DNA of 64,000 bases from Onthophagus taurus (Eukaryota > Arthropoda > Insecta > Coleoptera > Scarabaeidae): the NCBI RefSeq assembly GCF_036711975.1, contig NC_091967.1, positions 186,001 through 250,000 on the forward strand, read 5' to 3'. The notes under the pieces are model-generated. The model searched no databases, had not been told where the DNA came from, and worked only from the letters and a program-made list of their open reading frames with translations. Positions 16,823 to 56,570 of the stretch are shown here, piece after piece. The position numbers were made by a program, and so were the translations under genes. The first letter of the stretch is position 1, and every line of letters begins with the position of its first letter.

Positions 16823-18810
16823 TTACATAAATTTATTACAATTTATTTTTCTCTTTTTTTTTTCTTTATCCTCTCTTTCGGTTAGAATCCGTTTAAACAA
16901 AATTGTTTTTTCTTTTGATAATTCCACAATTTCCTTAGTTTCGTCAACGTTCCAAGACAATCTCTTTAAATCGTTCCAAAATCTTTTATTTGGATCGACA
17001 TTTAATTTATCCAACAATTGTTTAGACAATTGAGGAATAATCGGTTGTAAAATAATTCCGGAAACTCTCAACGTTTCAAACGTTAAATGTAACGTAATTT
17101 CTAATTGCGGTATTAATTCAATTTTTTTCCTTAACTCCCATGGTTTCATCGTTTCAACGAATAAATTCGCAGCATGTAAAGTGTTTATAACCGAATCAAC
17201 AACTTTATAAAAGTTGTAATTTTCGTAATGTTTGAAACAAACGTTTTCTAACGATTCAACTAATTCTATTAGTTTCTTTCCAGCTTCAATTTTTGTTATT
17301 TCATTAAAGGCGGTTTTATTTAATGGTGGAATTGTTTGAGTTGGGTTTAAAGCGTTTCCACAACATCTACTTAATAAATTTCCGAATGTATCTGCTAATT
17401 CCGAGTTTAAAACTCTCATCAATTTTACTTCACTATAATCTGAAGAAAATATTTTAATTAATTTAAGGGGACCAACAAATTTTATTTAATTAAAGTTACT
17501 TCCATCGCGATGAGTAATTCCTTCTCGAAGTAAAAAGTAACGAATCCCTTCATTTGTGTATGTGTTACTTAATTTTATTGGGGAAATAACATTACTTTTA
17601 GATTTTGACATCTTTTCACCATCAACGGTCCAATGGGAATGGCAAAGAATCGTTTTTGGTAACTTTAAACTTGCTGCCATTAAAAAAGCTGGCCAATATA
17701 TTCCATGAAATCTAATTAAAGTAAATTACTAAAATGTTCATGGAATAATATTCATTGATTACTTTAATATATCTTTGCCAATAACTTGAACGTTAGGTGG
17801 CCAACAATTTAACTCATTTGGATATCCAACAACACTCAAATAATTAATTAAAGCATCCATCCAAACGTAAATTGTTTGCGTACTATCGCCCGGTACTTTA
17901 ATACCCCAATGTACTCTAGAAATTGGTCTTGAAATGGATACATCTCGCATTTCATCTTTTGTTATCCAATTTAATAAGATTTTATGAAACTTTTTTGGTT
18001 GAACTGCGTTCTCTAAAACTTAAAATGTAATATAAATTTCAAATAAATGAGTTTAGTACCGTTTTGTAATAACCAATTCTTTAAATTATCTTGAAAATTC
18101 GATAATTTAAACATATAATTTTGTTCTTCTGTCCATTCAACTGGATGTCCACTTTCTTTAGAAACTTTTATTTTTTGTCCATTACTTAATATTTGGTCGG
18201 TTACTTCTAAATCGCTTAAAAATGTTTCATCAGCTATGCAATACCACCCGGAATAATTTGCTGAGTAAACACAACCATTTTTATCTATAGTTTCCTTAAA
18301 TAACATCAATTAAACAGCAATTGCAAACTACAATTCTTATATTAAATAAGGATAATTTTACCCAAAATTTATGCACAGCCTCTTTATGTTTAGCTTCGGT
18401 AGTTCTTATAAATCGAGTATAATCAACACTAAAACATTGAAACATCTCTTTATAACTATTAGAAACATTTAAACAATATTCATTTAGAGGCTGATTATGC
18501 TTAATGGCTGATTGCTGAATTTTAGTTCCATGTTCATCAGTTCCTGTTGAAAAAATAACATTTTCTTCAGGATGAATTAATTTTTGAAATCTTTGAATCG
18601 CATCCGCTATAACGGAACTGTATAAATGGCCTATATGTGGCGCTGGAATTATATGATGAAATTTACAATTTTCTAACTAAATTAATGCTTACATGCGTTC
18701 ACATAGTAAATAGGAGTCGTTATATAATAGCTTGGAATCAACGTGGAATATCTTCGTAAAGGTTTAATCATATTTTTCTTAGTGAATGATCGGCGAAAAC
18801 ATAACCTCAT
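16823..18810 (-). CDS. MARS2: Methionine--tRNA ligase, mitochondrial
   Basis: This class-I aminoacyl-tRNA synthetase charges mitochondrial tRNA-Met. Six exons on the minus strand (18810-18693, 18642-18362, 18294-18060, 18012-17763, 17711-17500, 17439-16823) join in phase to give 570 aa, close to the usual length. The first ~30 residues ([20 protein letters not shown]) are basic, as in a mitochondrial targeting peptide. [12 protein letters not shown] is followed by [10 protein letters not shown], the HIGH signature, across intron 1. [28 protein letters not shown] and [16 protein letters not shown] follow. The KMSKS loop is exact ([11 protein letters not shown]). The C-terminal part is the anticodon-binding helical domain. 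There is no zinc knuckle, as expected for the mitochondrial type. It is divergent from DCAF7. Its 5' end is repeated twice more upstream (18275-20872). Confidence 0.95.
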
Positions 18811-19154: not shown

Positions 19155-19684
19155 CCATTTTTATCTATAGTTTCCTTAAATAGCATCAATTAAACAGCAA
19201 TTGCAAACTACAATTCTTATATCAAATAAGTTTACCCAAAATTTATGCACAGCCTCTTTATATTTAGCTTCGGTAGTTCTTATAAATCGAGTATAATCAA
19301 CACTAAAACATTGAAACATCTCTTTATAACTATTAGAAACGTTTAAACAATATTCGTTTAGAGGCTGATTATGCTTAGTGGCTGATTGCTGAATTTTAGT
19401 TCCATGTTCATCAGTTCCTGTTGAAAAAATAACATTTTCTTCCTGATGAATTAATTTTTGAAATCTTTGAATCGCATCCGCTATAACGGAACTATATAAA
19501 TGGCCGATATATGGCGCTGGAATTATATGATGAAATTTACAATTTTTTAACTAAATTAATGCTTACATGCGTTCACATAGTAAATAGGAGTCGTTATATA
19601 ATAGCTTGGAATCAACGTGGAATATCTTCGTAAAGGTTTAATCATATTTTTCTTAGTGAATGATCGGCGAAAACATAACCTCAT
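19155..19684 (-). pseudogene. Partial MARS2 duplicate, copy 2 (exons 1, 2 and start of 3)
   Basis: It has exon 1 with ATG at 19684, intron 1, exon 2 and its donor, and a few bases of exon 3, then joins the upstream flank of copy 1. The HIGH signature reads SPYIGH here (tatatggcg on + where the gene has tatgtggcg), and PEEN has become QEEN. Exon 2 stays open. It could serve as an alternative 5' end if spliced to the real exon 3, but would carry a damaged active site. Confidence 0.85.
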
Positions 19685-35000: not shown

Positions 35001-38000
35001 ATATAGAGATTCAACCATTGGGGTTGTGTACTTGTGGTGTCGTTGATATTTTTGAAGAAAATTCAGTTCAATGTTACTTTTCAGCAGGTTATAAGTAATT
35101 TAAAATTAAAATTCTTTTTAAATATTTATTTTTTGTAATAAGCAGGTTCCGTTACTGAAAATCACAAAACTGATTCGCTATTTGACGCGGAAGCCGTTGA
35201 AAATAAAGGGCAACGAAAATTGTATAACGTTTCATGGGATTACCATGTTGCCCACGTAACTGAAACAACTATGTTGGATAGAACGGCTGCTTTTGCGGTC
35301 GATTTTGTCCATGAAGTTGTTGTGCCAGATGATATGACTTCTGATCAACTGTCGGATATCACAAATCTTGAATATAGGTTGGTTCAAGATTTTTAAATAA
35401 ATTATTGCTTATGGCATTTAATTAATTCCGTTTTAGTAACATTTTAGTAAGGACTTTATTAAGAATCGTTGTTGGTCCAATTCGAGTGAAAGTTTGTGCT
35501 GGATTAATTCACCGTGTTGAATGCATGGTGGCGGCTGCTTCAGCTTATGATTACGCCCCTTATATAGTTGAAAAATCGCACCCCCCATCAAAAGTTGATT
35601 TACAACCACCTTCAACTGATGATTACGACGCTTTAAACGAAAACATTCCAATACAAGTTATGCAATACACCATCATTGCCCCTGTTATTGAAGTACATTT
35701 ATTCGATCATCCTAAATTTGAATCAACTAAAAGTTATTTATTTAGAAAAAGGAAGGTAAATCTCACATTAATTTATTTGTCCACGACTACCTTATAATAT
35801 ACAGGTGTCCCGCAACGATTGTACAAAACTGTATCAGCGTATTCTATGATCAAAAATAAACAAAAAAAGCCTAATAAACATAGGTCCGAAAATGGACCAT
35901 TTTCGAGATATTCAAAGATTTAGTTTCATAAGTTGATATTGTTAACATCATGAATTTAAATTTGTTTTTATAATAATTAAGTCGTTACTATGATTACGAT
36001 AAGTTGTCTAATCAAAAAAAAATAATAATACTTCACGACATTATTATTTTACTATTTCATTTAATAAAACTATTAAGTATGGCTCCTATTAATTACTCCA
36101 AGGAAGAGATGGCGGATATGGTGTATTGTTACGGACTAGCTGATGGAAATGCGTCGTTAGCAGCTCGTCATTACGCGCAAAGGTTCCCGAACAGACGATT
36201 GCCTAATAGTCACACCTTTAGCAGACTATTTCTCAGATTAAAAGAAACGGGAAGCGTAACCCACAGCCATTCCACGGAGAGACATTACACAACGCCGGTG
36301 GAATTAGAAGAAGTAGTTTTGAGAAGAGTCGATGAAAATGCCTCAACCAGCATTAGAAGAATTTCTGCACAAGAAAACATTAACAAAACAACCGTTCACC
36401 GCATTTTAAGGGAGCAGTTGCTTTATCCTTATCATTACAACACCGTTCAAGCTCTAACAGAAAATGATGGCGAAACAAGAGAGATTTTTTGTAGGTGGGT
36501 CATACAGGAAGAGGTAGTAAACGTCGACTTTCCCATAAACATTGTATTTACGGATGAAGCAATGTTTACTCAAAGCGGAATTTTTAATATTCATAATGCG
36601 CACGTTTGGAGCGATGAAAATCCCCATGCAATACTAGAAACTCATCATCAGTGGCGATTCAGTGTTAATGTATGGGCTGGAGTTACAGGTGATCAGTTAT
36701 TAGGTCCATTTTTTCTTCCAAAGAGATTGACAGCCGATGCCTACATACATTTTTTACAAAATGACCTTACAGAGGCATTTGATGAATTACCTCAACAAAT
36801 TCTAGAAGATTGCTACTTTATGCACGATTATGCACGCGCTACTCGAGCATACTTAAATAACAGATTTGGCAATAAGTGGATTGGCCGAGGAGGTCCTGTC
36901 CCGTGGCCACCTCGTTCACCAGATTTAAATCCGTTAGATTTTTGGTTTTGGGGACATTTAAAACAAATTGTTTATTCTGAAGACGTTCAAAATGTGCAGG
37001 ATTTGAAGAATAAAATTAGTGACGCATTTGACACTGTAAAACAAATCGTAACCATGGTAATCATATAATTACTGCATCTAAATCGTTAGAATTAATGATG
37101 TTTACAATAGGTCAGCTTATGAAACTAAAACTTTGAATATCTCGAAATTGGTCCATTTTCGGACCTATGTTTATTAGATTTTTCTTGTCTGTTTTCGATC
37201 TGAGAATACGCTGATGCAGTATTGTACAATCGTTGCGGGACACCCTGTATACCTTATGAATGAGTTTTCTAAAACAAAATGGTAGTCATTTTTCACGGAG
37301 TGAATAATAATCATTATTCACGGGTAGCCATCTTGACCAGACTAATAATAATTATTTGAAACGTTAAAAGTTGAAAAAACGTCAATTTAATTCAAATTTT
37401 TAGGAGTTTCTAAATGTTTGACATTAAAAAGATCTAAACAAATTCCTTTTTTCGTATGATTTAAGCATAAATTAATTAATTTTCGTAAAGAAAACGACGT
37501 TTTATAAAACTGACATTTAATTTTGACAAATTGTTGTGAAGTTGGTTACAGTTAGTAACATTGAATTTGTGTCACATTGACGTTCAACCTTTATTCAAAA
37601 ATTTATTTAAAAAATAAATTTATGGAATCAATTTCAATAGTCATGGACAAAGTATAGTATTCTACTCGCATATAATGGACTATTATTCACTCAGGTTAAT
37701 TATGCCACTCGCTACGGTCGTGACATAAACTTAACCTTAGTGAATAATAGCCCTCATTATATGCTCATATAATAATATACTATTGTCCACGACTAGCTTA
37801 TAATGTATACCTTATGAATGAGTTTTCTAAAACAAAATGGTAGTCATTTTTCACGGAGTGAATAATAATCATTATTCACGGGTAGCCATCGTGACCAGAC
37901 TAATAATAATTATTTGAAACGTTAAAAGTTCAAAAAACGTCAATTTAATTCAATTTTTTAGGAGTTTCTAAATGTTTGACATTAAAAAAACCTAAACAAA

Positions 38001-44000: not shown

Positions 44001-47000
44001 CATGAATTTTTCGAAATCATCAAATATTTTTAAAATTCTTCAACGGCAGTATATTCTACTTAAAAAAGTGTCTTAAGAACGTATCAACCCCATTTCTCTA
44101 ATTTCAAAAATAAACGAAATATGAGCATCTTTTGAAATCAAGAAAATTTGACTTTTTGGCTATAACTTAAAAACAAAATAAGATAGAGGTTAGGTGGTTG
44201 CGGGATTGGGTTAGTCTCCAAAAAAGAGACCGGGACATGGCACCTACTTTTTTCGTATCTCTTATAGTTTCTGAGATAGCCTATAATAACACCCAAATTT
44301 GCCCACCGTGTACATATTTATCATCTACATAAAAAAAATTTTAGCAAAAATGTAAAGGGGGTGGTTACGTTTAGTAGTTTAGAAGGGTAGGTTGAAAGTA
44401 CAAACAGGGTCAAAACGTGCCCCAAATTTCATTTTCCTAGCGTTTATGGTTTTTCAGAAAAAAGAATTAAACCAAAATTTTCCGCCATTTTTGGAGGGGT
44501 GTAGCTCCTTAGGGGAGCCGAAGTCGCCCATGGTTCATATATCAAGCTACCCTTAAAATTCACTAAAGAATCACCCCTTGAAGTTTGTTGCAGTCATTCA
44601 GATACACCCTGTATAATTGCACCACCTTGTCCAAAAATAAAATAATTACTTAATCTAAAAGTTGCAGGTAGCGAAATTGAAGATAGACAATACGAATTAA
44701 AAATAGTTGGAATTTCTTTGAGTACGAGCACTTGGAGTGAGTTTGATCCGCTACTACATCAATCGTCATCAATGAAACAATTAAAAACGATGAGTGAAAA
44801 TCCCGCTTTAGAATGGAATTTGGGTAAAGGAACGATTATGAAAGGTCAAAACGTTAATTTTGTGCCGATAATAAACAAATTTGATGTTTTAATAGTAACA
44901 GCACCCGCAATGATTTATAAAAACGAGGTTATTTGCGGCCATTCGATTGAGATAAATTTCGTTTCAAATATTGAGACGTTAATTTCGTTGAACCAAATCA
45001 AATTTTTTCTTGCATTAGAAAACGAAGTGAATGGGGTGTACGATTTATGCGTGGGTAACGCTGAAAGTAAAAGACCCAAAGTTTTTTTACCGTATAGTTG
45101 TTTTAATAAGATAATTGATACACCATCCACTGAAATCCAACAAATTGATTTGGGCAAAGACTCTGGAATTGAAACTAGAGAGTTTAGAAGTATCGCTTCG
45201 TTTAAATCAACAACGGAAATTGCTATAAATTTAAAACGGGTTTCCGCCGCTGAGAATATTTACACAAAACCTTGCGTTAAATATCCTTATGGGTATATCC
45301 CGTTAGATTTATTAATAACAGCGGGGAAAATTAATTTTATTTTGTATAATAACACTAACGATGCCCGAAAAGATTTACTTAATTACGATGGGAGAAAGGA
45401 TTCCGAAAATTTTGAAGAATCTGAAGAGTATTTCCCTTATATTTTCGCTTCAATTTGCCAACCAAATATTTTTATGTCCGATTTACAATTAGGGCGTAAA
45501 ATCCAAGGATCTTGTTATGATGTTAAATTAAAATTACCGGAAATTAAGCAATTAAAATCAATGCCGATTGAAAAAAATTTTAACACAAACTTAGTTGAGA
45601 CAAGAACTGGATACCCAAATCCACATAACGGAGTATTACCCGCTTTTTTTACAGCTCGTTGGTCTAAAGGTGTGGGAAAGCCAAATTTAGAAATAGAGAT
45701 CGCAAAACCCGTGAAAATCGTTGCATCTGTTGCAATTTGCACCCATTTAATCAACGTTGTTAACGCAATAAATGAAACTTTGATTATCCCCGAAGAACCA
45801 ATCGTTATAAAATCAATTAATACTCAGCAAAAAAGTCGATTGAAACAACAAAAAAGTGTTGATTACGTTAAATTCAAAGAGATCAAAGACAAATTATTGG
45901 GAGTGACCGTTTTTAACGTAAAATTATCCCAAGTCGTTTTTAACATAAAAACGGAAAACGATAACGAACTAACATTAACATTGGGGAAAATAAAGAATTA
46001 TTTAACTATATCAAACCGCCCCGAACGGATCACAAATGTAACAACGTTAAATTCGATTTGTATCGGTGTCTCAACCGGGGATGTATCGCGATTATTACTA
46101 AATCCATGGACCATCTCGTTAGAAGTTTGCTTATTTTGGGAAAGTTGGCAAAGTGTCGATTCCGATCCGCAAATACAAATATCAGGTCAAAGCGACTGTA
46201 TCGTAATAGACGTTAGTCCCGAACAACTTCAATGCATCGAATTTGTACAAAAAGAAATTGCGGAATTTATTGCTTCTTTGCCTTTACCGAAAAATAATCC
46301 CGTTGAAACTTACGATGAACCATTAAAACCAATTCCAAGCGATAAAGAACAACATTATAAAGATGATTTAAGAGCCGGAGCTTTTCATTTTGTCGATTCG
46401 ACGAGTAATAATATCGATGAACTTCCTTTGCCTTACCGAGTTATGTTTTGGCACAAAAATATATCTGCTATGGCTTGGAGATACCCACAACCAAGAGCTT
46501 TAACGAAAGTGCGAGTATTTCCGGTTCCTTATAACATAACTCAAGATAGTAAAGAAAAAATATTATGTAATTTAGAGTATTGGTCTGAATGTCATGGTTC
46601 CTATCAACCATACACACAATTTTATTTATCAGAAAGTGAAATGTGCCAATTGGATTTACCGCAAAATAATCAACCGGTCGTAGCTAGTATTTGGAGGATT
46701 GTTTTGACATCGACAATAACAGATGCACGAAATCGGGTTAATTACACAAGAGTTTTATTATCACCGAGGGCTTTAGCTGGGTGTATTCGAGTTGATTCAT
46801 ATTTCAACAAAGTTTTAGTTCCCCAACTAACTTTATCTTTACATATTTCCACGATATCAATTAACTTATTTAACCGATTAGACAAAACGAAAAATTTAAT
46901 TATGCCTGAACAATTAAAAAATTACACCCCTGACCAATTATTTCCTGAATTACAAAATTTTATGACGATAACTTTAGATAATACAAGAGTTTATTTAGCA

Positions 47001-50000
47001 ACGTGGAATTTTGAGATATTTTCGATCGATTTAATTTCACATATAAAATGCACAATTCTCGATTATGCCTTTCTTACGATGCAACCTTTAATTTTGCCGT
47101 TTACATTTAAATTTGAGGCGTCAATTTCGAAATCAATTAATATTAATTTTATATCAAAACCGATTTCGATTAATTTAGGCGCAACAGCCGCTCATACTTT
47201 AGCAGTGAGTGGACAACTTTGGTACGAGTTTCTCACCAATGACGATAACTCAATGAATCTTATTGTTATGACTCAATACGTTGTTTGTAACGATACAAAT
47301 GTAACGTTACGTTTTGGACAAGCCGGTTCTGAAGATATACTTTTATTACCGAGATATTGCCATTTATACGCGTGGAGATCACAGAAAAGTAAATTAATGC
47401 TACGAGTTGCCTTGGAGGAATACGGATGGGTTTGGTCTGAAGCTTTTAGAATCGACAGTGATGGTACTGCGGTGCTTAATATTTCAAAAGAAAATAATAT
47501 TGTTGTTATAATGAGCGTAAGATCGTTATCGGCCACACAAAAAAAGATTACATTTTCGGGGCAATTATCTATTTGTAACACTTTATTGGAACACTTTGAA
47601 TTAAAAGTTGTCGAAAACGTGATGAGCCAGAAAGACGCCGTTTTTAAATCCGCCCCTGTTCACATAATAAGCGGTAAAAGCACCCCACCAAGCATTTTAA
47701 TCGACTCCACCAAAAAATATTTTTTGAGGCTAAGATTTTATGGATTAGATTCAGCTTGGTCTGGAGACATTCCATTAGCTGCAAATCCAAAATGCACCCA
47801 ACCTTGGTTGGTTAAAGTCCCATTACAAGAACGGGGACAATTTTTAAGCATTTGGTGCCAAATTGAGACGCAACATTTCGAATCGGGTTGTAAGATCTTA
47901 GCGATTTTATCCCCGCTCTTTATGGTGCGATCAAATCTAGCTATTAACTCAAAAATTTTTATTGAAACCCCAATGTTACACGTTCACTTAGAATCAACCG
48001 TTCGGGGAAAAGGCGAATATCAACAATTATATTGCCCCGGAACGATCGATCATTCACACCAATTAACATTTCAACTCGATGATACCCCAACATCAAACCC
48101 ATACGTACCATTAAATTACAGCCTTGTAGATCAAAAAGTATTCTTTAAAAAAAAAGATAAAGTGGATATCGACGAAATTTTAGACGTCTTAAACAATTAC
48201 ACTAAATCATCTTGGCCATATTTCGGGGAAGATTTCGAAGGAATCGATTTTTTAATTGAAGACCAACCGCTAACTCACGTCCAAGTAAAATACGAAAACG
48301 CCTGTCTTTATTCAAGCGCGCTTTTAATGGAGTTACTCCCATGGTGTTTATTATTGAACACAACAGGATGTCCGATTGCGATTATCGTCAACGAAAAAGA
48401 ATTATGCAGAGTGAATCATTACGGAATTTGCACCCCACCGAAATTAGAAGAGACTTTCTATTTAGGAGTTGGAATAAACGGAATGTGGAATTTAACCCTA
48501 CCTTTACAACTGGCAAAATCAAATTGGAGCACAGCTTTTTATATGCCGAAAATAAGCGGGAATATTCCGTTAGAAGGAAACATAAAAACGATGGTTAAAT
48601 GCGAACCGTACGTTTGTATGATTTCGATTATTTCGAACGTTGAAAATACAATTAGATTATTAAGGGTTAGCTCAACTCACGTTGTTACAAACCATACTTC
48701 GTTAAACTTTCGGGGGGTTTGTTTTGCTGTACCTGTCACTGGAAGTGTTTACAATTTTCCGAAAAAAACTGAGCAACATTCGTTTAATGTGCCGTGTAAT
48801 TTAAACACAAAATCTTCTGGTGTTTCAATTACGCAGTGGTACGTTATTGGAAAAACAATAGACCCTATGATTGAATACGTTTTATACATTTCTTTTTCAA
48901 CGAATGGTAAATCCGGATGGAGCTGTCCAATTCGTGTTGATAAACCTTTTAACAGAAGAAGTATTAGCGTTAAAATGAACCAAAAAAGTGTAAGTACAAG
49001 TTATTTATTGGACTAAAACTAAAAACATTCGGGGTCTCTCCAGCCACTTTTAGTTCAGTTAATACAGGCTGTGAAAGCCTTCAACTTATATTAATTTGTC
49101 CACGACTACCTTATAATATACCGGGTGTCCCTCAAAAGTGGCTCACCCCCATATTTTTCTTTATTATTGGTGATATAAGAAAACCATTTGGAATGCATAG
49201 TTAGGTCGCTAAAACGGATTATTACGACATGAAATCATTCTTTTTGTACTTCCGGTTATACCGGATGTGAGTACTAATTTTGCTATTTTTTTAAATCTAT
49301 AATTTTTTTTTCTTCAGTTGGGTTAATAGTATAATTTCACATAACTTTTACTTGAAAAAATTTTCACGATAGCTTATAATTTGTGAAAAAGAAATTATTT
49401 TCGTTATTTTATAACGTTTCAGTACCTTCGGAAAATGTATTACAACTTTTGACGCATAGTAGCTAGGTTAATAGTATAAACTACGTTATGTCCCTCTTGA
49501 TTTGCTATTCTCGAGCAGTGATCACTGCTATGCTTTAGTCAGTGGTTCTTTTTTAATAATGGTGTAAATTAACAGTTGTATTAAATTAGTTTTAAAAGAA
49601 TAACGCGATCAAACAATTAAGTTTAATTCAATTATTTTTGATGTTTTATTTTTTTCTTTATTTTTTGTTCTTTTACACTAAATGTTCTGTAGCTGAGTAA
49701 CTTACAATGTCCATTGTACATTATAATTTGGATTGTTTACTTTATTTTGGTTAAAACCTCTCAGATCACCTGACCTCACACCTTTAGATTCTTTTTATGG
49801 GGTAAAATCAAAAATGAGCTGTATAATACACCAGTATGGTCTCGTGAGGTATTAGAAAATAAATCGAGTTAGAAATTGTATTACCTAAATATCTCCGCAG
49901 GAATAACGTCGAGTCGGTAGATCGACAATTCGCAAGATACAATTATGTCAAAATCGAGGCGGGAGCATTTTGAAAATTTAGAAAATTAGTTTTTTTGAAC

Positions 50001-53000
50001 TTACAATTGAATTAAATTTAATTGTTGGATAGCGTTTTTCTTTTAAAACTAATTTAATACAACTGTTAATTTACACCATTATTAAAAAAGAACCACTAAC
50101 TAAAGCATAGCAGTGATCACTGCTCGAGGAATAGCAAATCAAGAAAGACATAACGTAGTTTGTACTATTAACCTAGCTACTATGCGTCAAAAGTTGTAAT
50201 ACATTTTCCGATGGTACTAAAACGTTAAAAATAACGAAAATAATTTTTTTTTTCAAAAATTATAAGCGATCGTGAAAATTTTTTCAAGTAAAAGTTATGT
50301 GAAATTATACTGTCTACCCAACTGCAGAAAAAAAATTGTAGATTTAAAAAAATAGCGAAATTAGTACTCACATCCGGTGTAACCGGAAGTACAAAAAGCA
50401 TGATTTCATGTCGTAATAATCCGTTTTAGCGACCTAACTATGCATTCCAAATGGTTTTCTTATATCACCAATAATAAAGAAAAATATGGGGGTGAGCCAC
50501 TTTTGAGGGACACCCGGTATACCTTACGAATGAGTTTTCTAAAACAAAATGGTAGTCATTTTTCACGGAGTGAATAATAATCATTATTCACGGGTAGCCA
50601 TCTTGACCAGACTAATAATAATTATTTGAAACGTTAAAAGTTCAAAAAACGTCAATTTAATTCAATTTTTTAGGAGTTTCTAAATGTTTGACATTAAAAA
50701 AACCTAAACGAATTCCTTTTTTCGTATGATTTAAGCATAAATTAATTAATTTTCGTAACGAAAACGACGCACATACGTTGATTTTAACGATTTAAGCGGT
50801 CAATAGTTGAATTCAAAAAGTAATCATAATTACAAAGGAAATACACAAAGAGTGTGTAGACAGTTCCAGAAACAAAAGGTAACACCCTCTATACTATCCG
50901 TGGTAGTGTGTGGTTGCACATGTCATTAGAACCTGATCGCATTGCGTGTACGCGTTACAGTTTTCTACGTTCTTTGCGTGAGCAACTTTTACAAAGTCAA
51001 TCTTTGAGTTTCTGTGTCTCTCACTAAAGTGAGGGTGATGGATCCCGATAGTTCAGGTAAGAATCAATAGGGATTACAATATTTTAAAAAACCTGCGATG
51101 TTTTAAGGTTATTTCAAAGGTTCGAAACCTTGTGTGTTTTTGAAACGAAATTTCCGGTATTTTTTGCTTTTAAAATCTATTTTGTTGTACTATCGCGCCC
51201 GATCGAGCTATAATTGATACTTTGTACTAACTGTTAACTGATGACGATTAAATCAGCTGCGGATACGGCGCGTTTCATAAATTTCAGAGACTTATACGTT
51301 ATGACTTGAAATAGAGGAAAAAACACGGAATTTGATTTTTCTATATTATTCTGTTTTCAAGTGATTTCAACATCATCTAGCACGTCTAGAATAAAAGGAC
51401 TAACTCGTCAATATTTATATGATCAACTGTAACAATTCAATTTTTCAACTTTAGATGAAAAGTTGAATCATTTGGAAAAGCATCTCTTGTCGTACTCCTG
51501 TAACGCTGAAGATAAGATAAGATGTCTGAAGAAAAGATTTGGTTACTTTAAATCTTCAATAAAAGTGAAATGGTCGAAAGCTCATAGAAAAGAAGATGTT
51601 TTCAAAAAAACGAATAAGGTCTGGTTGGATGGAACCTTTGAACTTCCAAGTGATCGTCAATGTCGGCCGGGACGTCCTTCTAAACCATTTAGTGAATTGA
51701 GTGAGAGAAGTAAGCGCCGAAAAACCGAACAGGTTCGCACGACTGTAGACGATGAGGTTATTATTCATGCTGCACAAACAACCTTAAGAGAAAGAGGCAA
51801 AAGAGATGCATCCCAAATTCTGAAAAACATCACAAATTCTCCTACTCGTGCTGGAAAATATAAAAAAGCTTTCCAACCCAAATATTGCCAACAAGAAATT
51901 CGTCCACTAACACCGCAGAAGCATTAGCCATGTTTGTAGAGGCTGATTTAACTAAGCGGCAATATGAAGTTATTAGAAGTAGGAACAAAGCTCTTTATCC
52001 GTGTTACAATCTAGTAATTAAAGCAAAACAAGATTGCTATCCACCTAAAGAATGTATAAGGGTCACAAGTACCTGCGCCGAAAGTCCACATGAACAACAC
52101 CGTTACGCGCTTTTCAATTTATCTGGAAGAAGTACTGGCAACCCTCAATGAAGAAGAAGGAAATTCATTGCTAATTATTTGTAAATGGGGTTGTGATGGT
52201 TCGCAGCAAGCTAAATATAAACAGAAATTCGATAATGATGCCGATTCAGATGGTCATATATTTCTGAGTTCTTTCGTACCAATACAAATAGTTTGTGGCA
52301 AGGATAAAAAGAAAGTCATTTGGCAAAACCCAACACCGTCTTCGCCAAAACATTGCCGACCGATAAGATTCAGATTTCTGAAGGAAAACGCGGATGTTAC
52401 TAAAGAAGAAATTAGTTTTGTCTAAGAGTCTGCACAGAGTTTAGTTGCTACCGAAGCCATTTTGAACGGAAAGACATTCTTGTTTGGACATATATTGAAA
52501 ATGACTATGGTTGACGGAAAGGTTTGCAACGCAGCTACTGGCACAAAATCAACGACACGGTGTTATATATGTAACGTAACATCAAAAGATTTCAATAATC
52601 TGGATCTAGAAAAAAAAAGTAGTGAGTAAACCTGCTATCGAATTTGGTTTATCTGTTTTACACGCCAGAATACGATTGTTAGAGAGTATTTTACATTTGG
52701 CTTATAAATTGCCAGTCAAGAAGTACAGACAGAAAAGAAGTAAGGAGGAAAAAATCGTCGAAGAACAAACGAAATTACACATTCAAGAAAGGTTTAGAAA
52801 AGAGACGGGATTATTAATAGATATGCCAAAGGCTAACTATGGAAACACTAGCCGAAGATTCTTCGAAAATGCAAATTTAGCTGCTGACATCACAGGAATT
52901 GATTATAATTTATTGTACAGACTTAAAGTAATTTCATCTGGTCATAAAATTGATACCAAGAAATATGATGAATATGCTCTGGATACGGCTAAATTATACG

Positions 53001-56000
53001 TTCAATTGTATGAATGGCATCCGATGACACCATCCATGCATAAGATATTAATACATGGTGGTACCATCATTAAAAATGCTTTGTTGCCCATAGGGCAATT
53101 ATCAGAAGAAGCCCAAGAGGCTCGAAACAAACATTTTCGAATGTACCGCGAAAACTTTGTCAGGAAATTTTCAAGAGAAGATTGTAACCGCGATATATAT
53201 AATAGATTATTATTAAGCTCAGACCCACTTTTGAGCAGCACAACACAAATTAAAAAAAGTTGTAAATCGAAATCATTCTGCCCAGAAACAATAGAAATGT
53301 TAATATCAGCTGAGCCTTATATTGAAGCCAGTACTGCACCATATTCTTCGGATAGCGAGCAAGATCTGTGATTAAATATGATTGAAATAATGATTATTGA
53401 TATTGTTTACTAACATAATATACCTACGAACAAATATTATGGGACAGTGATTTCGGAAATGAATGCTTATTGTGATTATTATGTCTTTTAAAATACCTTT
53501 TTTTATGTGTTAAGTTAATATGTTTGAATTTTCTGTATTTGTTTTTAAATAATCATATTAATTAGTAATTATTGTGAAAAATACCGAATTATTATTGTTT
53601 ATCCCATTTAGAACTGATATAGATCATAAAATAATTTTGACCGCGTAAATCGATCAAATCAACCTATGTGCGACGTTTTATAAAACTGACATTTAATTTT
53701 GACAAATTGTTGTGAAGTTGGTTACAGTTGGTAACATTGAATATGTGTCATATTGACGTTTAAAATTTATTTAAAAAATAAATTTATGGAATCAATTTTA
53801 ATAGTAGTCGTGGACAAAGTATAGTATTCTACTCGCATATAATGAGCTATCATTCACTCAGGTTAATAAACTTAACCTTCGTGAATAATAGCCCTCATTA
53901 TTTGCTCATATAATAATATACTATTGTCCACGACTACCTTATAATATATACCTTATGAAATGAATGAGGTTTCTAAAACAAAATGGTAGTCATTTTTCAC
54001 GGAGTGAATAATAGCGGTGAATAATAATCATTATTCACGGGTAGCCCAGACTAATAATAATATTTGAAACGTTAAAAGTTTAAAAAACGACAATTTAATT
54101 CAATTTTTTAGGAGTTTCTAAATGTTTGACATTAAAAAAACCTAAACAAATTCCTTTTTTCGTATGATTTAAGCATAAATTAATTAATTTTCGTAAAGAA
54201 AACGACGTTTTATAAAACTGACATTTAATTTTGACAAATTGTTGTGAAGTTGGTTACAGTTAGTATCATTGAATTTGTGTCACATTGACGTTTAACCTTT
54301 ATTCAAAAATTTATTTAAAAAATAAATTTATGGAATCAATTTCAATAGTCGTGGACAAAGTATAGTATTCTACTCGTATATAATAATATAATATTATTTC
54401 TTTAGATTCCAATTGTTGTTGTTTCCCAAGAATACAAAGGCCAATCATTTTTATCATTACACTACGATTCTCACCCGCAATTACAAATAAAAAATCGAAG
54501 CGGTGTTAAATTATATTGTGCTCAATACGCCGATAATGACGGAAGATTAATCGTTGAAGACTGTGAAGATATGAAGTGGTTATGTAGCGTCGATGATGAA
54601 AGTAGTTGTTATTACACAATGCCTGATTTATCCGTTTTATTTCCCGACGTAGCCTTAAACGCAAATCGTTTAGTGTTAGCTGCAGATCCAGAAGGTAATT
54701 TCAGCAAAAGATTTTTTTATTACAATATAAATTGTTTTGATTTGAAGGTGATCCTAAAGGTTTTCAATGGTCGCAACCGATCTTAGTGACAAATTTCAAC
54801 GATCAATTCGTTAGAATACCGTATTATGGTGATGTAAAAGTGTCTGTTAAGTCGACCGCTTATACAACGGTACTCTTCGTCGAATCGGTTACTAAAGTTG
54901 AAATACATGCGAGAGATATTAGAGTACGATTATCAAGGCACGAAATCGAAACAACGGCACCTATAAGTTCACGGGCAAATGACGATCCCGCTGAAAGTAC
55001 ATCGCTTCAAAGTACCTATTTTAGTGCCGAAGAAATATTATCGGATAGTAGCGGGAATAAAAATATGGTGCTGTACTCGAAAGTTTTACCAACGTTGGCG
55101 GAACAATCAAATCCGCAACAAGGGACTAGTACTACACCTTCATCCTCTGAATTTGATTTGCAAAAAGAATCAACGGCTACGGTAAAAAGAAAAGACACTT
55201 GGAATAATTTTAAGGTTCAAGTTTTTATTAAGGCCATTATTTTTACATTGACTTCGGATTTAGAAAGTTGTGGAGCAGAAAAAACTGAAGTTTGTGCTTT
55301 AACCTGTGATAATATTGCTTTGGTTTTAAATAGAACAGATGTAAGTATTTTAAATATAGTGTGATGGATTGCACAACATTTAACCTTTTCACTAATACTT
55401 ATATTTTAATTTTTTTAGAATTTGGAAGTTCATTTCAGCCTGAGTAATATGCAAGTCGACAATCAACTTTATTTTAGAGAAACATACGATTTTCCCGTTA
55501 TTTTAATAAGTAAGAATGCCCCTCCTAATCAACCTTTAAATTCGTTAAACGTACAAGTTAATCAATTGATATCTAACGCAAAAAAGAATGCTTTAATAAA
55601 TGTTTACATTAATTTTGAAATATGGACCGACCCCGTTCGATTAACTACGATAACCAGTATGACTGAGGTTCATATAAAAATGAAACCTTTTGCTGTTTAC
55701 GTAGAAGATACTTATATGATGAAATTAATCGAACAATTTTCGATTTTAAATCCAACTAATTTGGTAATATGGCGAAAAGAAACGAATAATACAAATAAAT
55801 TCGATACAAGTGCAATGTTGGTATACGTTCCGTTACATCTTATTTGGACATCAAACATTTTATCTTCCGCAATTTCAATTCGATCGTTTGTAATTGAACC
55901 GATATCAGTTTTATTATCTGCGCATTGCTCAATGAAAATTTATGTAGCTTTGGATGAGTCGCCTTTAGAATTTGGTAAATTTGATAAAACCAAAATTGTG

Positions 56001-56384
56001 ACGACTTCGTACAAATTAGGAAATGCGATTACAATGCATTATTTATCGGGGGCTATTTTTGGAGCTGGATGGGTTGTGGGTTCGTTAGAGCTTCTTGGTA
56101 GTCCTGGAGGCTTAGCTCGGGCTATGGGAGCGGGATTAAAAGATTTTATAAACTTACCATATCAAGGATTAATGCAAGGACCTTGGGGGTTCATTGTTGG
56201 GATAACGCACGGATTTGCATCCTTAATGATGCATGTTACCGCCGGTACTTTACAATCGGTGACTAAATTAGCTTCTAGCGTTGCTAGAAATTTGGATCGC
56301 ATGACGATGGATGAAGAACATTTGAGGAGAACTGAAGAACAGAGAAGGCAGCGCCCTCAAAGTGTTGGACAAGGATTATTTCAA
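29028..56384 (+). CDS. VPS13B: Intermembrane lipid transfer protein VPS13B (COH1), 3' end outside window
   Basis: A very large bridge-like lipid transfer protein of Golgi/endosome contacts; human loss causes Cohen syndrome. Nineteen exons join in phase: 29028-29114, 29171-29433, 29487-29668, 29818-30028, 30080-30216, 34612-34778, 34856-35087, 35146-35377, 35437-35755, 38316-38796, 38851-39291, 39350-39528, 39583-39877, 39986-40248, 40306-41332, 44668-48989, 54406-54694, 54748-55340, 55419-56384. They total 3562 codons. The N-terminal chorein region has SLWGGDASFHNLDLRLEVLE, SGHIHELSIHVPWTKL and LDKRNASGKI. Mid-protein anchors are GSEIEDRQYEL and NPALEWNLGKG; CNDTNVTLRFGQ lies in the adaptor-binding region. 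The C-terminal part has FGAGWVVGSLELLGSPGG and ARNLDRMTMDEEH. Exon 12 starts at 39350 because the nearer acceptor (39322) breaks the frame. The last donor is 56384; the final few hundred residues must lie past 64000. Several introns are swollen by transposons. Confidence 0.95.
30278..31327. mobile_element. TE3 copy B, uninterrupted (VPS13B intron 5)
   Basis: The ends CAGGGTGATTCACATAAGAA and inverse are flanked by TA (30276-30277, 31328-31329). It is 1050 bp and almost a full palindrome centred near 30810, with complementary arms of ~500 bp. There is no ORF of its own. It gives the empty-site sequence for the hAT-like insertion in copy A. Confidence 0.88.
31330..31589 (+). mobile_element. TE4 left-arm fragment
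   Basis: It matches the left arm of the complete TE4 at 41360: gatgtatctaaattactgca..aacttcaaggggtga, then tagggcacgttttgaccc and ctaaactact. It is cut off where the TATACTCTG element begins. No right end is seen locally. Confidence 0.7.
31590..31984. mobile_element. TATACTCTG-ended element, unit 1
   Basis: Inverted ends TATACTCTGTTTTTAAACCA and its complement bound 395 bp of non-coding DNA. A second unit of the same sequence lies at 32755-33420. This copy shows the empty site (aaaatatctagtgatatt) of the small MITE nested in unit 2. The target could be TA, but the end sequence itself is TATA, so this cannot be settled by eye. Confidence 0.75.
31985..32754 (+). repeat. 122-bp tandem repeat, ~5.5 units, between two copies of the same element
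   Basis: Units beginning aatgttaggtaaggttag recur at 32081, 32203, 32325, 32447, 32569 and 32691, a period of exactly 122 bp. Within each unit, variants of aattatagcgtgaagttttc and aattataccatgaagtattc repeat, so the unit itself derives from shorter repeats. About 95 bp of unique sequence precede it. Confidence 0.92.
32755..33420. mobile_element. TATACTCTG-ended element, unit 2
   Basis: The same inverted ends and interior as unit 1, in the same orientation, enlarged by a 265-bp MITE plus its 8-bp duplication. Units 1 and 2 flank the 122-bp satellite, forming a unit-satellite-unit structure. Confidence 0.75.
33074..33338. mobile_element. 265-bp MITE with perfect 28-bp inverted ends and 8-bp duplication
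   Basis: The ends start CTTTGATTATATATAATATG and are perfect inverted repeats for 28 bp. They are flanked by the 8-bp duplication ATCTAGTG (33066-33073, 33339-33346). Unit 1 at ~31903 shows the empty site. The duplication length suggests the hAT superfamily. The perfect ends suggest recent movement. Confidence 0.85.
33430..34368. mobile_element. TE5 copy, left end truncated (VPS13B intron 5)
   Basis: It starts within the left arm (gtaggctatctcagaaactataagag) and ends with gcccaccctg before TA (34369-34370). It lacks the CAGGGTGGGC start. It contains the coding-like stretch discussed under findings (33967-34095). It lies about 240 bp before exon 6 of VPS13B. Confidence 0.75.
35802..37247 (+). 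mobile_element. TE6: mariner/IS630-like transposon with a near-complete transposase (VPS13B intron 9)
   Basis: The ends CAGGTGTCCCGCAACGATTG (left) and CAATCGTTGCGGGACACCCTG (right) are flanked by TA (35800-35801, 37248-37249). The left end has lost one G relative to the right. The 1446-bp element carries one long ORF (36079-37068). It is inserted in the tail of the repeat unit that continues on its right side (37250 on). Confidence 0.9.
36079..37068 (+). CDS. TE6 transposase, IS630/mariner-like with DUF4817 helix-turn-helix
   Basis: A 329-codon frame from ATG 36079; the frame is open further upstream, but only from a TTG. The N-terminal DUF4817-type domain (YSKEEMADMVYCYG, ARHYAQRFPNRRLP) is followed by a second helix-turn-helix (RRISAQENINKTTVHRILRE) and a DDE domain with FTDEAMF, YFMHDYARA and WPPRSPDLNPLDFWFWGHLK. 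The second motif normally reads QDGAPPHF in this group. Here about five residues are missing right after the Asp, so 36 residues rather than 41 (as in TE7) separate it from the Asp of PLD. The C-terminus (DTVKQIVTMVII) also looks frameshifted. It is probably inactive despite the open frame. Confidence 0.82.
   Translation: MAPINYSKEEMADMVYCYGLADGNASLAARHYAQRFPNRRLPNSHTFSRLFLRLKETGSVTHSHSTERHYTTPVELEEVVLRRVDENASTSIRRISAQENINKTTVHRILREQLLYPYHYNTVQALTENDGETREIFCRWVIQEEVVNVDFPINIVFTDEAMFTQSGIFNIHNAHVWSDENPHAILETHHQWRFSVNVWAGVTGDQLLGPFFLPKRLTADAYIHFLQNDLTEAFDELPQQILEDCYFMHDYARATRAYLNNRFGNKWIGRGGPVPWPPRSPDLNPLDFWFWGHLKQIVYSEDVQNVQDLKNKISDAFDTVKQIVTMVII
37250..38282 (+). repeat. ~558-bp repeat (K), two tandem units in VPS13B intron 9
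   Basis: Units beginning accttatgaatgagttttct start at 37251 and 37809. Each contains the palindromic gaataataatcattattc, the run taggagtttctaaatg and the run aatagtcatggacaaag. Unit 1 ends gtccacgactagcttataatgtat, and a short tail of the same kind (gtccacgactaccttataata) precedes TE6. The second unit ends early, ~35 bp before exon 10. The motif gtccacgacta and its inverse tagtcgtggac may be element ends. No ORF is seen. Confidence 0.8.
42507..43785 (+). mobile_element. TE7: mariner/IS630-like transposon nested in TE5
   Basis: The inverted ends ACAGGTGGGGCAAAAGTAAT and its near-inverse (..ttttgccccaccttg) are flanked by TA (42505-42506, 43786-43787). The 1279-bp element contains one broken transposase gene (42629-43670). 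It is the innermost element of a three-level nest. Confidence 0.88.
42629..43670 (+). pseudogene. TE7 transposase, internal deletion and frameshift
   Basis: From ATG 42629: YTLEERGNIVTAYLTNFRS, a helix-turn-helix with QREFRRHFPRRPAP, ARSGRPRN, then the first catalytic Asp in IIMDDEAHFHLSGYVNKQN. The frame stops at TGA 43220-43222 just after LHPLKVTV. The protein resumes in another frame (FEDGDGTTVTVTGERYRYML) with roughly a dozen residues missing. The second motif is FQQDGATAHTA and the third RSPDLTAPDFFLWG, with 41 residues between the Asp of QQD and the Asp of APD. It ends INSGGGHLTDIIFSS. A single lesion, otherwise well preserved. Confidence 0.85.
49015..49120. repeat. Short repeat tail before TE2 copy B
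   Basis: It includes attaatttgtccacgactaccttataata, the same tail that precedes TE6 at ~35769. It also has a stretch (actaaaactaaaaacattcgggg) resembling 56444-56468. It lies at the start of VPS13B intron 16. Confidence 0.5.
49121..50517. mobile_element. TE2 copy B, long form (VPS13B intron 16)
   Basis: The ends CCGGGTGTCCCTCAAAAGTG and inverse are flanked by TA (49119-49120, 50518-50519). The arms equal copy A, but ~430 bp of extra central sequence (about 49610-50040) is kept, including a transposase remnant. A 16-bp palindrome AGCAGTGATCACTGCT lies in the arm. Confidence 0.87.
49755..49975 (+). pseudogene. Transposase C-terminal remnant in TE2
   Basis: Translation across shifted frames gives RSPDLTPLD, the third catalytic motif of IS630/mariner-like transposases. 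It is followed by KNELYNTPV-like and VESVDRQFARYNYVKIEAGAF-like pieces, as at the C-terminus of these proteins. Nothing of the N-terminal domain is left. Confidence 0.5.
50770..53670 (+). mobile_element. Transib transposon (RAG1-related family)
   Basis: This 2901-bp element has inverted ends beginning CACATACGTTGATTTTAACG (left) and, inverted, CACATAGGTTGATTTGATCG (right), about 32 bp with mismatches. It is flanked by the 5-bp duplication CGACG (50765-50769, 53671-53675). The empty site aaaacgacgtttt is seen in other K repeat copies (e.g. 37490). Transib elements are known for 5-bp CGNCG-type duplications and ends starting CAC, akin to the heptamer of V(D)J recombination signals. The interior encodes a decayed Transib transposase. 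Confidence 0.9.
51038..53371 (+). pseudogene. Decayed Transib transposase (RAG1 core-like)
   Basis: A short first exon (MDPDSS, 51038-51056) splices in phase to 51455, giving DEKLNHLEKHLL. Then come EDKIRCLKKRFGYFKSSIKV, PGRPSKPFSELSERSKRRK, EADLTKRQYEVIRSRNKALY and CKWGCDGSQQAKYKQKF (first catalytic Asp, 52195). MVDGKVCNA (candidate second Asp, 52513) precedes the zinc-type TTRCYICNVTSK. FGLSVLHARIRLLE, ERFRKETGLLIDMP and NTSRRFF are the RAG1/Transib signature, and GQLSEEAQEARNK holds the candidate catalytic Glu. Frameshifts near 51885, 52085 and 52620 and a TAA at 52423-52425 disable it. Order and motifs match the family from start to end. Confidence 0.88.
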
Positions 56385-56570
56385 GTAATTTTTTTAAATT
56401 AGTTTTCTTACATAAGGCTTTCACGGCCGGTGTGAATTAAACTAAGATTAGAACTAAAACTAGAAACTTTCGGGTTTTGCCGTTTTAATAAAAGGTTTGA
56501 CGTTTCGGATGCCATGTTGCAACCTTCTTCAGAAACTGGTTCGAAGTGACGAGATCAAAAAATCGGTAAC
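56385..56570. repeat. Unclassified repeat at start of the last VPS13B intron
   Basis: It contains tttcgggttttgccgtttta and gacgtttcggatgccatg..ttgcaaccttcttcag, which has the look of widespread insect repeats. A piece of it recurs at 49016-49037. Ends could not be defined. Confidence 0.4.

Follow-up and report, generated by a model that had tools for sequence, protein, structure and literature searches.

A transposable element of the Transib superfamily was examined in a 64,000-nucleotide stretch of the genome of the scarabaeid beetle Onthophagus taurus (assembly GCF_036711975.1, contig NC_091967.1, positions 186,001–250,000 of the forward strand), referred to as the window, whose coordinates are used throughout. 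The element, which belongs to a family designated A, occupies positions 50770–53670 on the plus strand (2901 bp, delimited from the sequence and by comparison of copies) within an intron of a gene of the VPS13 family, whose orientation it shares. It is flanked by a perfect target-site duplication CGACG (50765–50769 on the left, 53671–53675 on the right). The 5' end reads CACATACGTTGATTT... and the 3' end, once reverse-complemented, reads CACATAGGTTGATTT..., both starting with CACATA. The extent, the duplication and the CACATA ends were all found exactly as proposed in a first-pass annotation of the window, which had also described a near-full-length copy; the element does run from end to end. 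It is almost certainly a Transib DNA transposon, once autonomous and now inactivated, inserted in the intron. The ends, the duplications, the homology of the transposase, the other copies in the genome and the lesions on which this reading is based are all observed.

The main transposase coding exon extends from 51362 to 53371 on the plus strand and is interrupted by two stops, three frameshifts and two in-frame deletions. Its open pieces retain the motifs CKWGCDGS, MVDGKVCNA, RCYIC, FGLSVLHA and SEEAQEARNK in the order expected from the first-pass annotation. The first piece (52060–52422, plus strand, 121 aa) contains CKWGCDGS with the first catalytic Asp, and another (52610–53368, plus strand, 253 aa) contains SEEAQEARNK with the catalytic Glu. 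A sequence search of the Protein Data Bank (PDB) matched them to chain 6pqn, the Helicoverpa zea transposase HzTransib, with E-values of 1e-16 and 3.2e-60, respectively, HzTransib being the only Transib among the matches from the PDB library. The piece between them (52426–52626, plus strand), which holds the second catalytic Asp in MVDGKVCNA and also CYIC, was placed by alignment to a sibling family, B, whose HzTransib match covers that region. The open 669-aa frame of the family B copy L024 matched 6pqn over its residues 170–645 (476 residues, E 3.4e-111). The catalytic residues of HzTransib are given as D126, D225 and E436 (PMC6941560); in the numbering of 6pqn, offset by 17, they are D109, D208 and E419. 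These align opposite CKWGCDGS, MVDGKVC and SEEAQEARNK of the window element (D208 via family B), in which the catalytic D, D and E and the zinc-binding CxxC are present in order. Identity of the C-terminal piece is 70% with family B and, over 239 residues, 48% with HzTransib. In a tree of the C-terminal region with ten rows, drawn without families D and E, the window element joins family B with 99/97 support. The Transib/RAG1-like assignment of the first pass is borne out by this grouping with HzTransib; Transib remains the best match, and the termini and the 5-bp length of the duplication recur in other copies.

A search of the beetle's own genome listed 60 matches, with 40 of 92 candidates scored, and another 15 family A loci, fragments among them, were fetched, giving 16 with the window copy. 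Both ends are present in 11 copies, the window copy included, and in ten of them the 5-bp duplication is perfect, which rules out chance as the origin of the duplication. The ten sites are CGACG (four copies), CGGCG (two), CGTCG (two), CGCCG (one) and TATCG (one). Nine of the ten are thus of the CGNCG type, described as the preferred Transib target site (PMC4735498); as background, CGNCG starts at 73 positions in the 64,000 bases of the window. Three more family A loci retain the right end only. When the genome was searched with the end patterns at up to three mismatches, the 30-base 5' pattern was found at 11 places and the 32-base 3' pattern at 14, and the reversed control of each pattern gave 0 matches. 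The first 30 bp of the 5' end are identical in nine of the 11 matches, window included. All 11 left and 14 right ends belong to the listed copies, and no short non-autonomous derivative of family A was found at up to three mismatches in 30 or 32 bases. One family A copy, L015, is split by a large insert with a 1116-aa open frame (from 2253 onward) that we take to be a retroelement polyprotein.

The gene of families A and B would be made of two exons. At 51038–51061 the window reads ATGGATCCCGATAGTTCAG followed by GTAAG, and the family B counterpart reads ATGGATTGCGATAATTCAG, followed by GTAAGG. The two-exon gene is suggested because the ATG and the donor are matched in family B and because a downstream AG in each family (51360–51361 in the window) would splice the short exon in phase with the main frame. 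From a reading of the sequence only, the putative first coding exon spans 51038–51056, before the GT donor at 51057, and the putative GT...AG intron spans 51057–51361, both on the plus strand and with the flanking exons in the same frame.

The lesions were read against the family B frame and compared between the window copy and the 15 other family A loci. The three frameshifts counted in the first-pass annotation are present, near 51917, near 52085 and in an A run near 52610, together with two in-frame TAA stops where a single one had been counted. The stop missed earlier, at 51430–51432 on the plus strand, was not seen in any of the ten copies that have bases there, and the site is deleted in two and uncovered in three; the other, at 52423–52425 on the plus strand, is absent from 13 of 13 copies covering it. 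The first frameshift is absent from ten of 12 covering copies, the remaining two carrying deletions of their own. By an initial count, the 11-bp loss was likewise absent from ten of 12; on closer examination, L020 retains these bases and has a separate deletion nearby, and in L009 another change accounts for the same net length. The A run is one base shorter than in the window in 11 of 12 copies and one base longer in the twelfth. In addition, the window copy has lost 15 and 12 bp without a change of frame. The 12-bp deletion is missing in 12 of 13 copies and the 15-bp deletion, by count, in ten of 13. As no frame-breaking change of the window copy was found unchanged in any other copy examined, the window copy probably decayed after landing. 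At 25 of 2882 sites (0.87%) it departs from the majority base of the column; pairwise divergence within the main group of eight family A copies is 1.5–3.2%. Judged from its broken frame, the copy is dead.

Several points weigh against a once autonomous element that decayed in place. Pfam gave nothing above the curated cut-offs for the four open pieces of the window element, and the family assignment therefore rests on the PDB sequence match. L020, one of the 11 two-ended copies, has a damaged 5' end and no duplication, and it has the same 15-bp deletion as the window copy. L012, L013 and L019 carry a common 23-bp coding insertion. Neither activity nor a transcript nor an empty site was observed for the window element.

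Some of these points favour a copy that was already broken before it jumped and was moved in trans by the enzyme of a sibling such as family B, which we consider unlikely. Family B has open frames, and its 5' end is 84% identical to that of family A over 38 bp. The shared 23-bp coding insertion means that some family A copies may have been moved by the enzyme of another copy; L012, L013 and L019 are possibly a subfamily mobilized in this way, L013 and L019 having different target-site duplications despite the common insertion. For the window copy, the 15-bp deletion shared with L020 lies at a 15-bp imperfect tandem repeat, which makes repeated independent loss plausible. Against transport in trans stand the finding that no frame-breaking change of the window copy recurs unchanged in another copy, and the lack of short deletion derivatives with family A ends at up to three mismatches.

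It is far less probable that the element is a RAG-like (RAGL/ProtoRAG) element that has lost its RAG2-like gene. RAG1 has the DDE residues and the CxxC, as Transib does, and the motif order of the window element is common to RAG1. The only other PDB chain listed, amphioxus RAG1L (6b40), was a weak match for the 253-aa and 121-aa pieces (E 0.013 and 0.21) and for family B L024 (1.7e-4), whereas HzTransib matched the same 253-aa piece far better, at 3.2e-60. DDE residues, CxxC, signals starting with CAC and 5-bp duplications are likewise described for RAGL transposons such as ProtoRAG (PMC7204232). Unlike RAG1/RAG2 and ProtoRAG, the window element has a single transposase gene in its 2901 bp, with no other open frame of at least 110 aa inside. 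Since the RAG1-like protein matches only weakly, the element is classified by sequence as a Transib and not as a RAG-like element. Domestication of the transposase as a host gene, which its position inside a gene, its shared orientation and an almost wholly recognizable protein might evoke, is next to impossible with a frame broken by stops and frameshifts between two intact ends and an intact duplication.

For the inactivated Transib transposon, the course of events that we infer, from splicing and a hairpin mechanism to decay after landing and loss of activity, would be as follows. The ancestor would have had one gene, probably of two exons, for a RAG1-like DDE transposase, which bound both CACATA-type ends. 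Excision would have proceeded via flanking hairpins, as described in the HzTransib literature, and reinsertion at a C/G-rich 5-bp site would have produced the CGACG duplication. The copy would thus have landed in the VPS13-family intron, in the orientation of the gene, and then gathered its own lesions.

The first-pass annotation had suggested a search for intact copies elsewhere in the genome. No open full-length frame was found among the 16 family A loci; open frames are present in sibling families. Family B comprises eight main copies, 98–100% identical to L024; for three of them the listed match lacks one end or both. The frames of L024 and L025 (669 aa each) and L026 (665 aa) are open, the family has all three catalytic motifs, and the two-ended copies have exact 5-bp duplications in five cases of five (CGCTG, CAGCG twice, CGCCG twice). 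Family D (L031, L033–L035) has CACATAC ends as in family A, and its two two-ended copies have one exact duplication and one with a single-base difference.

Family F has CACACTG ends and exact 5-bp duplications in the five copies read. Its copy L042 (G000:C6:23410428-23413924) has 725 codons open from stop to stop, and five further long copies are 99% identical. From its sequences, the family looks recently mobile. At the first catalytic position, His stands in L042 and Asp in five of five other copies read. As these other copies have stops or shorter matches in the protein search listing, the open frame and the first Asp were not seen together in any family F copy. A scan for termini in L042–L046 gave nothing or chance pairs, and the ends of L042 were later found from repeat coordinates.

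In family E, L036 (1569–4453) has CACAGTG at both ends and KWGCGGS, with Gly where the first catalytic Asp is expected; a second two-ended copy has CGCTG and CGCTT flanks, with one mismatch. Family G is represented by L047, with CACATTG and CACAGTG ends. The ends of L036 and L047 were found by a scan demanding a near-identical duplication; their duplications are therefore no independent evidence, and neither family E nor family G enters the duplication counts. Among the 23 two-ended copies of the other families, the 5-bp duplication is exact in 21, and 17 of these 21 are of CGNCG type.

In family C, L039 has an open 669-aa transposase frame and forms with L038 a pair of open and broken copies, 99% identical over 2.55 kb. 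The search for ends of L038 and L039 found no CAC ends, and these copies may be truncated or differently bounded. The family C protein search listed 71 matches at 31–100% identity, with 66 of 1119 candidates scored; with at least 71 matches listed, Transib-related sequence is abundant in the genome.

The likeness of Transib ends to the recombination signal sequence (RSS), with its heptamer CACAGTG and nonamer ACAAAAACC, has long been known. At the 5' end of the window element (50770–50808, plus strand), the heptamer CACATAC is followed by a 23-bp spacer and the nonamer-like TCAATAGTT; at the 3' end (53632–53670, minus strand), the signal read inward consists of CACATAG, a 23-bp spacer and the nonamer-like TCAAAATTA. 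Comparison of 12 ends, from one copy each of families A, B, D, E, F and G, gave one layout for the six families: a CACA heptamer, a 23-bp spacer and an A-rich nonamer-like box at both ends. Positions 1–4 (CACA) and 29 (G) are invariant, and letters 5–7 of the heptamer range from TAC/TAG in the window group to GTG, the exact RSS heptamer, in family E. In family D, L035 has one base fewer in the 3' end, with a 22-bp spacer there instead of 23. Similarity to the RSS nonamer is highest at a spacer of 23 bp, with 58 of 108 letters over the 12 ends. None of 2000 shuffles reached this score, whether the spacer was fixed at 23 or the best of 30 was taken; the 12 ends were taken as independent and the 23-bp register had been noticed beforehand, and the result is weaker than it appears because the families are related. 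Transib ends are described with symmetric spacers of 20–22 bp and, in a few cases, with 12/23 asymmetry (PMC8355894).

The window element has the traits of the superfamily that Kapitonov and Jurka reportedly described in 2005: a single transposase, CAC ends, CGNCG-like 5-bp duplications and heptamer- and nonamer-like ends. Its heptamers, CACATAC and CACATAG, differ from the CACWATG type that is said to be that of Transib. It shares with HzTransib (6pqn and related PDB entries) the transposase family and the catalytic triad. HzTransib is described as 3518 bp long, with a deduced 489-aa protein and a GCTCG duplication (PMC1852546), whereas the window element has 2901 bp, CACATA ends and a CGNCG-type site. 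Since the family B match to 6pqn starts only at family B residue 170, the group of families A and B carries more N-terminal sequence than 6pqn matches.

The window copy is an ordinary dead member of the known Transib superfamily, from a low-copy family. Transib is a relative of RAG1, the enzyme that rearranges antibody genes. The copy is a fossil by itself and has its value as an entry point to siblings with open frames and readable ends, above all family B. In these siblings, RAG1-like transposases come paired with their signals and can be compared functionally with RAG and the RSS. A tentative proposal, which we hold as possible and somewhat doubtful, is that this one genome contains a natural Transib series, with family B open and in 98–100% identical copies, family F in 99% identical copies with perfect duplications, and symmetric ends with 23-bp spacers and varied heptamers across the six families compared. 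If the families were still mobile, they would offer a ready system for the joint change of transposase and signal; if the proposal were true, it could be tested whether a 23-type signal on both ends preceded the 12/23 pair of V(D)J recombination.

The host gene was recognized by its downstream exon (55419–56399, plus strand), which matches the C-terminal regions of VPS13A (7.7e-14) and VPS13C (4.7e-12). The first-pass annotation is therefore upheld as to the VPS13 family; its choice of the paralogue VPS13B was not proven by any search and is presumptive. A PDB search with two host exons returned nothing for VPS13, the exon at 55419–56399 alone having matched, and Pfam gave no VPS13 match for the ten host open frames tried, seven of them twice. 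A large upstream host open frame spans 44646–49013. A scan of the genome for the telomere repeat TTAGG gave three overlapping matches at a single place on C3, and 11 matches of the reversed control on the opposite strand. Just downstream of the Transib element, two perfect 14-bp arms separated by 106 nt form a hairpin-like repeat (53804–53937), possibly a miniature element. A 39-bp repeat with 97% identity flanks the element (50528–50566 and 53962–54000) and is probably another dispersed repeat. Upstream of the large host exon, an open 363-aa frame (35977–37065) matches DUF4817 (8.4e-11), with DDE_3 just below the cut-off, and probably encodes a mariner-like transposase. Two open pieces on the minus strand (18299–18676 and 19179–19550) are alike over the 40 residues compared, the first with a HIGH-type motif; we presume that they are perhaps a duplicated methionyl-tRNA synthetase exon.

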